Notes under the pieces: model-generated
The model's input: only the letters and a program-made list of their open reading frames with translations
Databases searched by the model: none
Told to the model about the DNA's origin: nothing
NCBI GenBank assembly: GCA_021847015.1
Contig: JAJZVW010000003.1
Span: forward strand, 62,001-126,000
Source: Pseudomonadota bacterium
Lineage (GTDB): Bacteria > Pseudomonadota > Alphaproteobacteria > Rhodospirillales > Magnetospirillaceae
Direction: 5' to 3'
DNA length: 64,000 nucleotides
Shown here: piece by piece, positions 24,191-56,056 of the stretch
Layout: each line of letters starts with the position of its first letter
Position numbering within the stretch: position 1 is the stretch's first letter
Made by a program: the position numbers and the translations under genes

Positions 24191-24958
24191 ATGCGCCCGT
24201 CTTCGCCGACCGCCGCCGCCCTTGCCCTGCTCGCCGCGATCGCGGCGGGCGCTCCCGCCGTCCGCGCCTCCCAGGCGGACGACGCCAAGCGGTATGAGAA
24301 CTGCATGGCGATGGCCCGCAGCAAACCCGACGAGGGGCTGGAGGAAGCCCTGGCCTGGCAATCGCTGGGTGGCGGGGAACCGGCCGAGGATTGCGCCGCC
24401 GTCGCCCTGATCGGCCAAGGCAAGTACACCGACGCCGCGGCCCGTCTGGAAAAGCTGGCCGCGGCCAGCAAGCAGGGGGCCGACATCCGCGCCGGCATGC
24501 TGCAACAGGCCGCACAGGCGTGGCTGATGGCGGGGAAGACCGAGCGGGCCGACGCGGTGCAGCGCACCGCGCTGACCCTTGCGCCCGGCAACGTCGAAAT
24601 CCTGCTCGACCATGCCCTCACCATGGCGGAGGTCCACCATTACAAGGAGGCGGTGGACGACCTTACCCAAGTGGTGAGCAAGCAGCCCGACCGGGTGGAA
24701 GCCTACACCATGCGCGCCAGCGCATACCGCTACCTGAACAATACCGCCGCGGCGCAGGCGGACGTGGACCGGGCGCTGACGCTGGACCCGGGCTCTCCCT
24801 CGGCGCTGGTCGAGCGGGGCATTCTCCGCCGCCTCAAGGGCGACAACGCGGGAGCGCGGGAGGACTGGCTGAAAGTGGTCGAGACGGTCCCCGGCGGCCC
24901 CGCTTTGGACGATGCGAGAAAGAATCTCGAACTGTTGGACGTCAATACGAAACAATGA
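24191..24958 (+). CDS. Exported TPR-repeat protein
   Basis: Predicted periplasmic protein of 255 aa. The start at 24191 opens directly with a signal peptide (MRPSSPTAAALALLAAIAAGAPAVRA, cut after about residue 26). The mature part is a chain of tetratricopeptide-like helices, for example QAAQAWLMAGKTERADAVQRTALTLAPGN and YRYLNNTAAAQADVDRALTLDPGS, from about 85 to 245. Two early cysteines (ENCMAMARSK, EDCAAVALI) could form a disulfide. Such proteins act as scaffolds; the partner is unknown. The stop overlaps the start of the next gene (ATGA). Confidence 0.8.
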   Translation: MRPSSPTAAALALLAAIAAGAPAVRASQADDAKRYENCMAMARSKPDEGLEEALAWQSLGGGEPAEDCAAVALIGQGKYTDAAARLEKLAAASKQGADIRAGMLQQAAQAWLMAGKTERADAVQRTALTLAPGNVEILLDHALTMAEVHHYKEAVDDLTQVVSKQPDRVEAYTMRASAYRYLNNTAAAQADVDRALTLDPGSPSALVERGILRRLKGDNAGAREDWLKVVETVPGGPALDDARKNLELLDVNTKQ

Positions 24959-25383
24959 GGACGACCTTGCACAACCGCAACGCCATCGACATCGCCGCCG
25001 GCAGCTTCGTCGCCGCGACCATCGCCGGCCGGCGCACCCTCTGCCTCAAGGTGGACCGCGTGGGTAAGGAGCACACCAACCATTACCTGGTGCCCCTCGA
25101 CCCGGTCGACGACCGGCGCTCGCTCGCCCTGGTCTACATCGACCCGGAAGACGAGATGACCGCCGTCGACGGCATCTCGTTCGCCTTCGCCGACGAGGTC
25201 TCGGGCTTCGTGCCCGAGGTCGGCGACGCCTTCTCCTGCGCGGCGGGGGTATTCCTCAAGGTCATCGACGATCCCCAGTCGCAGCGCATGCACGCCTATG
25301 TGGATATCGCCACCGGCATGCTGCGCGCCCGCATGGACCGCCATGCCGAACGCATCCTGAGCTGGTCGGTCAGTCGGATTTAA
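24955..25383 (+). CDS. Conserved hypothetical protein coupled to TPR gene
   Basis: Unrecognised soluble protein of 142 aa. The ATG overlaps the stop of the TPR gene (ATGA), so the pair is translationally coupled. It looks like an all-beta protein: SFVAATIAGRRTLCLKVDRVG, NHYLVPLDPVDDRRSLALVYIDPED, SFAFADEVSGFVPEVGDAF, then a long strand-helix tail KVIDDPQSQRMHAYVDIATGM. No signal peptide or membrane segment. I cannot assign a function. Confidence 0.65.
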   Translation: MRTTLHNRNAIDIAAGSFVAATIAGRRTLCLKVDRVGKEHTNHYLVPLDPVDDRRSLALVYIDPEDEMTAVDGISFAFADEVSGFVPEVGDAFSCAAGVFLKVIDDPQSQRMHAYVDIATGMLRARMDRHAERILSWSVSRI

Positions 25384-25615
25384 AACGAAATCGCATCGTC
25401 TTGTGTTACTTTTGGATGACACGCTTTTTTCCGATGACAACTTGGGAATACTCGGGATAGAGTGAACACGTTGACACTAAGGGACGGTGGATTGGATTGA
25501 CCGATCGCCCCGGCCGCGGTTTCCCCGGCCACCCTCTTGCACTCGGCGCCCGGCCGCGACGTTGTCGCGGCGCCGCCGTCACCGCCGCCGCGCCTTTCCG
25601 CGCCGCGCGCGACCG

Positions 25616-25645
25616 GGCCTCCCCGCTGGGAGGCCTTTTCTTTTT
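25616..25645 (+). terminator. Strong intrinsic terminator in the leader of the second phoH
   Basis: Perfect stem GGCCTCCC (25616-25623) with GGGAGGCC (25628-25635), loop CGCT, followed by TTTTCTTTTT. It lies 230 bases past the last upstream gene and only 29 bases before the phoH2 start, so it is badly placed as an ordinary operon end. It could end a small RNA transcribed from about 25470 (TTGACA at about 25471) or attenuate phoH2. Confidence 0.85.
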
Positions 25646-25674
25646 CCCCTGCCCCGCAGCCGATGGAGACGAGC

Positions 25675-26406
25675 ATGGCAAAGCGTGCCCCGCGCAACGG
25701 CACCCAGCCCAGGACGGAAACGGTGGTCGCCCTCTATCCCCAGGCGGAATGGTCCCCCGTCGATGAGGAGAACCGGGATCAAAGCTATGTGCGCAAGGTG
25801 CGTCCGCGGAGCGACAACCAGCAGCGGCTGCTGGACGCCTTCCAGCGGCACAACCTGACCCTGGCGCTGGGCCCGGCGGGCACCGGCAAGACGTACCTGG
25901 CCATCGCGTCCGCCGTCGAGGCCTTCGAAGAGGGCCGGGTGTCCCGCATCGTCCTGTCGCGCCCGGCGGTCGAGGCGGGGGAGTCCCTGGGGTTCCTTCC
26001 CGGCGACATGCAGGAGAAGCTGGCCCCCTATCTGCGGCCCCTTTACGACGCCCTGTCGGACCGCCTCGGCGGCAAGCGGCTGCGGCAGATGCTGGGCGAC
26101 GGTTCCATCGAGATCGCGCCGATCGCCTTCATGCGCGGCCGCACCCTCAACAACGCTTTCGTCGTCATCGACGAGGCGCAGAACTGCACCTATGGCCAGA
26201 TCAAGATGCTGCTGACCCGGCTGGGCTGGCATTCGACCATGGTGCTGACCGGCGACCCCGACCAGACCGACCTGCTGCCCGGCCTCTCGGGCTTGGCCGA
26301 CATCGCCCGGCGCCTGGAGGCGCTGCCCGACATCGCGGTGGTCCAGTTGGATGAGCACGACATCGTCCGCCACCCGCTGGTCGCCGGTATGCTTTCGGTA
26401 TTATGA
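25675..26406 (+). CDS. PhoH-family ATPase, short form
   Basis: Second PhoH-type protein, 243 aa from the ATG at 25675 (GGAG upstream). It has only the P-loop ATPase domain: Walker [15 protein letters not shown], then [34 protein letters not shown] and Walker B VVIDEAQN, ending in MVLTGDPDQTDL. It lacks the KH-like N-terminus of the YbeZ-type paralogue at 12783. The role is unknown; related single-domain PhoH proteins may be RNA helicases or nuclease partners. It is preceded by a leader terminator and followed by a GC-rich hairpin, so it appears monocistronic. Confidence 0.9.
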   Translation: MAKRAPRNGTQPRTETVVALYPQAEWSPVDEENRDQSYVRKVRPRSDNQQRLLDAFQRHNLTLALGPAGTGKTYLAIASAVEAFEEGRVSRIVLSRPAVEAGESLGFLPGDMQEKLAPYLRPLYDALSDRLGGKRLRQMLGDGSIEIAPIAFMRGRTLNNAFVVIDEAQNCTYGQIKMLLTRLGWHSTMVLTGDPDQTDLLPGLSGLADIARRLEALPDIAVVQLDEHDIVRHPLVAGMLSVL

Positions 26407-26540: not shown

Positions 26541-26567
26541 TTGGCACTCGTCGCGGGGGAGTGCTAA
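26541..26567 (+). promoter_or_regulatory. CIRCE operator (HrcA binding site)
   Basis: TTGGCACTC, nine-base spacer, GAGTGCTAA: one mismatch from the consensus inverted repeat TTAGCACTC-N9-GAGTGCTAA. It lies 60 bases before groES and next to the promoter, so heat-inducible repression by HrcA (encoded elsewhere) is expected. Confidence 0.95.
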
Positions 26568-55821: not shown

Positions 55822-55960
55822 CGATCGGTTTGGCCCCGGTTGCTGACCGGCAACGAATAGGCCCCGTCCGCACATCCGTCAACTGCGGACGCCGACACCG
55901 GCCCACGCCCCCCCCTCCCCGCGCCAGCGGCCGGCATGGTCCGGTCCGCCTTGCGGCGGT

Positions 55961-56056
55961 GGGAGGCCGGACGGCGACCCGAACCGGAAATCGTTACGGC
56001 TGCTTCCTTCCGGACCTGACCGGGTTGGCGACGGGTCCGCCCGCCGCCGGCCTCCC
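55961..56056 (-). ncRNA. ffs: Signal recognition particle RNA (4.5S)
   Basis: On the minus strand the 96-base transcript starts GGGAGGCCGG and ends CCGGCCTCCC, a perfect closing helix. The conserved apical core GGTCAGGTCCGGAAGGAAGC, which binds Ffh, lies in the middle. Length is typical of small bacterial SRP RNAs. A hairpin CCGCC/GGCGG follows 3'. The SRP receptor gene ftsY is about 3 kb away on the same strand. Confidence 0.97.

Follow-up and report, generated by a model that had tools for sequence, protein, structure and literature searches.

The interval in front of phoH2 in the window (the whole stretch of DNA analysed here, 64,000 nucleotides long) has the architecture of a conserved attenuator-type leader, a reading that is well supported by the arrangement of its predicted elements, in which a strong terminator hairpin lies between a putative promoter and phoH2 and, among relatives, is kept with this gene. 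The promoter in this arrangement was taken from consensus and alignment, and no second promoter was seen on reading the 29-nt gap behind the terminator. The original prediction had offered attenuation of phoH2 as one possibility, and this idea is supported by conservation of the terminator with phoH2 while the upstream genes differ. Feature positions are collected in Table 1.

Table 1. Features of the phoH2 leader and its flanking genes in the window
Feature	Position	Strand	Basis or detail
Upstream CDS, 142 aa, last gene ahead of the leader	24955..25383	+	translation
Direct repeat GTTAC-N6-ATGAC, 11-bp period, operator-like, upstream of the promoter	25405..25420	+	family pattern
Putative promoter ATGACA-18-TAGAGT	25434..25463	+	consensus scan; relatives' boxes by eye
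SD-like GGACGGTGG, G-rich run ahead of the leader start codon	25482..25490	+	
Putative leader ORF, TTG start, 89 aa, crosses the terminator and the phoH2 start	25497..25766	+	start aligns with relatives' TTG/GTG/ATG
Intrinsic terminator (putative attenuator)	25615..25645	+	8 perfect pairs plus G-T, CGCT loop, TTTTCTTTTT
phoH2, PhoH-family ATPase, 243 aa (PF02562)	25675..26406	+	Pfam; SD GGAG 25665-25668

The PhoH2 protein matches PF02562 with an E value of 1.1e-80 in Pfam, and the product of the last gene ahead of the leader has no Pfam match. An inverted repeat upstream of groES (TTGGCACTC-N9-GAGTGCTAA, 26541-26567) is one that we take to be CIRCE-like. To our knowledge, PhoH proteins occur widely, and little has been established about what they do. 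The PhoH protein YbeZ of E. coli is described as interacting with the rRNA maturation nuclease YbeY (PMC5101352), and the Streptomyces PhoH-like protein SCO2532 is described both as a member of the WblC regulon, which responds to translation inhibitors, and among listed ribosome-associated proteins, in an account in which wblC itself is controlled by uORF attenuation (PMC7157823).

The terminator hairpin in front of phoH2

Direct reading of the hairpin places stem arms GGCCTCCC (25616-25623) and GGGAGGCC (25628-25635) on either side of the CGCT loop, followed by TTTTCTTTTT (25636-25645), with G25615 and T25636 adding a ninth pair. The GC-rich stem and U-run of an intrinsic terminator are both present, and the hairpin would be expected to stop transcription in the cell. 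The segment 25612-25646 folds with a minimum free energy of -18.5 kcal/mol (z -2.97), one of 200 shuffles being as good. A strict scan of both strands of the window, requiring at least eight pairs, at least six of them G-C, and at least six T in eight positions, matched this hairpin only; the same scan on three Markov-resampled control sequences, each read on a single strand, found 0, 0 and 1 sites. Since a looser scan of 24800-26200 found one site where 0.9 were expected, the case rests on the strength and conservation of the hairpin, and not on its presence. The T-run ends 29 nt before the phoH2 ATG (25675), and the stem lies 232 nt beyond the end of the upstream coding sequence (25383). The perfect 8-bp stem with its T-run at 25616-25645, originally described at this distance from phoH2, is borne out by direct reading and the strict scan, as is the end of the upstream operon some 230 bases earlier by the coding-sequence end.

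Relatives were sampled through the PhoH2 protein, which was sought in 55 family genomes and gave a match at 1e-40 in 54; matches at 1e-90 or better, found in 49 of the 54, were taken as phoH2, and weaker PhoH matches (43-59% identity) were attributed to the other paralogue of phoH or to relatives. Loci came from sets of 30, 80 (named contigs; the best 80 of 576 relatives) and 19, and merging of identical upstream stretches reduced 123 to the 107 used. The family set comprises 48 loci (from 48 of the 49 phoH2 genomes, six of them represented by a named contig), and the distant set comprises 56, with L129 and L130 excluded and one locus with less than 150 nt upstream skipped. Six loci (L068, L073, L104, L109, L114 and L147) showed no phoH by motif and stand outside all terminator counts; on rechecking, L109, L114 and L147 have the hairpin, and L104 has none within 100 nt of its chosen start. 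A search of 41 genomes at the DNA level gave mostly short GC-rich matches; those of L002 and L010 reach the terminator, and that of L003 the phoH2 start.

Terminators were counted over -100 to 0 and -140 to 0 of phoH2. One lies within 100 nt upstream in 47 of the 48 family loci (L148 is the sole exception), with 19 to 58 nt between stem end and ATG, and in 15 of the 56 more distant loci, leaving 41 without; the hairpins of L088, L103, L106, L112 and L118 fall outside these 15 because they lie at about -144 to -121. As controls, a terminator was found in 22 of 2006 random same-strand 100-nt stretches, mostly coding DNA, and, for other conserved genes of the 107 loci, at 2 of 323 starts, which are approximate because each is the first ATG of its frame, and which replaced a groES control yielding three loci. 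The stem sequence differs by clade (e.g. GCCTCCC/GGGAGGC and GGTCTCTC/GAGAGGCC). The conserved upstream ORF varies by clade as well, many loci having cluster c0, part of genus g7 having c3, and two further groups c6 and c19, respectively; these clusters are stop-to-stop frames, of which some merely cross the leader. Were the hairpin merely a late-placed 3' end of the upstream operon, it would be the only candidate for that role, the looser scan giving no second terminator-like site between 25383 and phoH2; yet the terminator stays with phoH2 while the upstream genes change between clades, and the control gene starts so rarely have one, that we regard this explanation as highly improbable. The earlier placement of the hairpin in the phoH2 leader, and not at the end of the upstream operon, stands on the same comparison.

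Putative promoter elements and leader reading frame

ATGACA-18-TAGAGT is the only promoter-like site around the leader in the window (one found against 0.1 expected), and many relatives have, by eye, GTCGACA or NTGACA together with a TTAAGGT- or TAGCGT-like box at the matching distance. The TTGACA at 25471-25476, with which the structured stretch was originally said to begin, has no -10 partner in the promoter scan and lies at or after the expected start; it is probably not the promoter, the ATGACA-18-TAGAGT site being the one that aligns by eye with the boxes of relatives. For M. gryphiswaldense, transcription is reported to start mostly 6-9 bp past the -10 element, and 23-27% of the extracted 5'-UTRs to be 150-300 nt long, in a transcriptome paper of which the main text does not mention phoH (PMC9549626). 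With a spacing of 6-9 bp, transcription in the window would be expected to start at about 25468-25471, near 25470, and a terminated leader to measure near 175 nt.

Further upstream, a TKAC direct repeat with an 11-bp period occurs in 19 of 45 family loci, against a mean of 0.11 and a maximum of 2 in shuffles, and lies in relatives approximately 89-100 nt ahead of the leader start; it presumably resembles a Pho box on the other strand and may be a response-regulator site. In 27 of 45 loci the spacer separating the -35- and -10-like boxes, 46-64 nt ahead of the leader start codon, contains a GANTC site for CcrM methylation (mean 2.4 and maximum 7 in shuffles), with N being G in 10, T in 7, C in 6 and A in 4; the promoter in the window is without one. 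RAMA-domain (CcrM-type) proteins are present in 48 of the 55 genomes, and GcrA (PF07750) scores above cut-off in only 6 of the 55.

A leader start preceded by an SD was assigned in 45 of the 48 family loci (TTG in 26, GTG in 15, ATG in 4), in part by alignment and by eye and with only A, G or T starts allowed; L024, L063 and L148 were left without one. That no CTG start occurs carries little weight, C preceding TG in just 142 of 737 cases. In the window, the terminator is spanned by three open frames and the leader start is one of several, with an alternative GTG start opening 25487-25858. Among the assigned family ORFs, 43 of 45 cross the hairpin, whereas L062 and L139 stop at its foot. The ORF end falls within -20 to +8 of the phoH2 ATG in 24 of the 45, and four are in-frame fusions to phoH2. 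This openness is weak evidence, because with rule-picked starts a stop codon interrupts frames 0, 1 and 2 ahead of the end of the terminator in 6, 25 and 7 of the 45 loci, respectively, so that frame 2 is nearly as open, and because the DNA is GC-rich. Rule-based starts lie 81-148 nt from the stem end, a distance at which coupling could be conditional.

None of the family ORFs is codon-selected. Codon positions are flat in group A (0.303/0.310/0.301) and likewise in groups B, B2 and C, and the family leader has no clear in-frame excess of synonymous changes. Given the flat codon positions, a conserved leader peptide in the family of the window was rejected, and because the peptide is not conserved there, we infer, and do not read directly, that its leader is translated.

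Codon selection was found in four distant loci (L109, L110, L114 and L116), with TTG-started leader ORFs of 72, 70, 72 and 65 codons, respectively, the hairpin lying inside each. Over their six pairs, 63, 64 and 185 differences fall at codon positions 1, 2 and 3, and the peptides have the common core LDLIRLHV...IASPATR.VKS..ASPWEVFLCP; the leader ORF ends 2, 0 and 3 nt ahead of the phoH2 ATG in L109, L110 and L116, and in L114 its stop overlaps the ATG. Across 54 ungapped codons of L110 and L116, 16 synonymous codons are counted in the ORF's own frame, compared with 1 and 2 in the two alternatives (p 0.0004), and across all 65 aligned codons 18 are synonymous and 22 changed. Judged by these substitution patterns, the leader ORF containing the hairpin is under codon selection in all four loci. 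A search of 385 class genomes with the L110 peptide gave a single weak match, in L150, whose fetched stretch contains no phoH. In L075 (45% GC), an ATG ORF of 48 codons spans the hairpin and stops at -40.

The leader frame is fused to phoH2 in L088, L103, L106, L112 and L118, with the hairpin inside it at the position given above and with a third-position excess (0.258/0.252/0.457), and Hyphomonadaceae-type loci have an open in-frame extension with flat codon positions (0.33/0.355/0.352). Some clades may thus have PhoH2 with an N-terminal extension in frame; as a general explanation such an extension was rejected, since in several genus-g7 loci the ATG is immediately preceded by TAG.

Leader RNA structure and a possible free-standing transcript

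The stretch after TTGACA, thought at the outset to be potentially highly structured, does fold better than shuffles, but only modestly so (25470-25646, z -2.0, 7 of 200 shuffles as good). Rfam scanning of the window, together with a permissive scan of the leader, gave no leader match at gathering score, the best sub-threshold match in the leader (17.9 bits) lying over the terminator. A bacterial small SRP RNA was found elsewhere in the window by the same means (55958-56056, minus strand, 61.3 bits).

Covariance, for which the original prediction proposed a search across relatives, was seen in part of genus g7 and not more widely. A seven-helix structure, obtained with RNAalifold on an 11-sequence alignment (A3) of 11 of the 16 g7 leaders, is paired in 93.0% of cells against 34-51% for slid versions, and 10 of its pairs are changed on both sides (slid versions 3-6; shuffles mean 3.9, with 0 of 500 reaching 10), a comparison that favours the structure because it was predicted on the same alignment. 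It replaced a first helix guess, P1, which was off register and 48.5% paired. A 14-sequence g7 alignment, with L026, L029 and L030 added, gave a consensus of 22 pairs and no multi-branched fold; L060, L061 and L136 are excluded from the g7 alignments, and the alignments of two other leader groups were read by eye.

A model built from 28 of the 38 pairs of the g7 structure (R1), which stems from a single genus and is blind to divergent leaders, was searched against the 55 family genomes. It gave 16 strong matches (E <= 9.9e-5), all adjoining phoH2 and 11 of them its own sequences, and 22 weaker ones (E 3.9e-4 to 0.08), of which 3 adjoin phoH2 and 19 lie elsewhere. Outside g7 and its nearest kin E values were 8e-4 or worse, the window genome has no match at 0.1, and the window itself gave a 55-nt match at E 0.74; taken together with the alignments, this makes the structure genus-level at most.

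The pairing and double-sided changes of the g7 structure are what might be expected if an RNA-binding protein, an antisense RNA or a ligand acting on a structured leader, and not translation, set readthrough into phoH2, and such a factor would share the evidence from the terminator and its placement. The 14-sequence consensus nevertheless differs, R1 scores poorly beyond g7 and its nearest kin, Rfam gives no match, and by eye no pairing alternative to the terminator was found in the leader; attenuation of this kind seems to us doubtful. A candidate antiterminator, in which the SD pairs with the 5' arm of the terminator, was set aside as inconsistent across clades by eye. Nor does the interval resemble a riboswitch with a conserved aptamer, having no Rfam match and a leader body that diverges fast and is poorly conserved across the family, and the metabolite-sensing leader first suggested is disfavoured on these two grounds.

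A gene for a trans-acting small RNA, about 175 nt long and ending at 25645, with phoH2 expressed by terminator readthrough, would account for the promoter-like element and strong terminator, for the structured body in part of one genus, and for the 19 weak R1 matches away from phoH2. Set against this are the 16 of 16 strong R1 matches that adjoin phoH2, as found with a model of single-genus origin that misses divergent leaders, the SD-like run and start codon near the 5' end, and the fast divergence of the body. The free-standing small RNA of the original prediction is less likely on this evidence, and we consider it improbable.

Proposed mechanism and comparison with known systems

We prefer translation-coupled attenuation of phoH2 resembling that of pyrBI and, taken as a whole mechanism, give it marginally better than an even chance. 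Transcription would start near 25470, yield a leader of about 175 nt and meet the terminator directly before the phoH2 ribosome site, and phoH2 would be expressed only from polymerases reading through; this dependence is expected because the small gap between terminator and ATG makes a separate promoter unlikely. The leader ORF would start approximately 25 nt into the leader and cross the terminator, ending at the phoH2 start or beyond it. Ribosomes that load early and trail the polymerase closely would keep the hairpin from folding, and phoH2 would be made; were leader translation to lag, transcription would stop and leave a short leader RNA, so that attenuation, too, would yield a terminated RNA of about 175 nt. 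Both regulated readthrough at the terminator and translation as its regulator in the family of the window are suggested by this layout.

More tentatively, and as a possibility that we think unlikely on balance, the leader may be a general sensor of translation capacity, in which translation of the ORF, and hardly its sequence in the family of the window, would gate the terminator; PhoH2 would then be a factor linked to ribosomes and produced in keeping with their supply. In relatives the same cassette is seen both as a separate leader ORF and as an in-frame extension of the PhoH2 N-terminus, where the terminator falls within the gene. If the leader does tie phoH to leader translation, it would provide a handle on PhoH function. 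It would also serve as a test of transcription-translation coupling in Alphaproteobacteria, and as a case of one cassette occurring as a separate ORF, an overlapping ORF, or a fused extension with the terminator in coding sequence.

Open PMC literature on phoH with attenuation or leader peptide yielded no description of this leader. The trp and his amino-acid biosynthesis attenuators combine a leader ORF with a terminator, as the phoH2 leader appears to; unlike in these systems, the terminator of the phoH2 leader lies inside the putative ORF and not after it, and the family of the window has no conserved peptide and, by eye, no alternative hairpin. Rfam families are alike in having a leader with a terminator hairpin, none matching the phoH2 leader at gathering score. 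The actinobacterial whiB7/wblC systems resemble the proposed switch in that uORF attenuation is described as tied to translation state (PMC7157823); they differ in gene, phylum and leader, and the likeness is one of regulatory principle.

In E. coli pyrBI (pyrL), as in the layout predicted for the phoH2 leader, a terminator lies within a short leader ORF just ahead of the gene. Translation across an intrinsic terminator is reported to repress it, the pyrBI terminator, inside a 135-bp leader gene, being suppressed by the translating ribosome (PMC4824070, PMC5021804), and translation across the phoH2 hairpin would similarly be expected to relieve termination. The likeness is one of terminator-in-ORF layout, of which the UTP-sensing pause region is no part, and unlike in pyrBI the gene is an unrelated one and the leader frame is separate from phoH2, overlaps it or is fused to it, depending on the locus.
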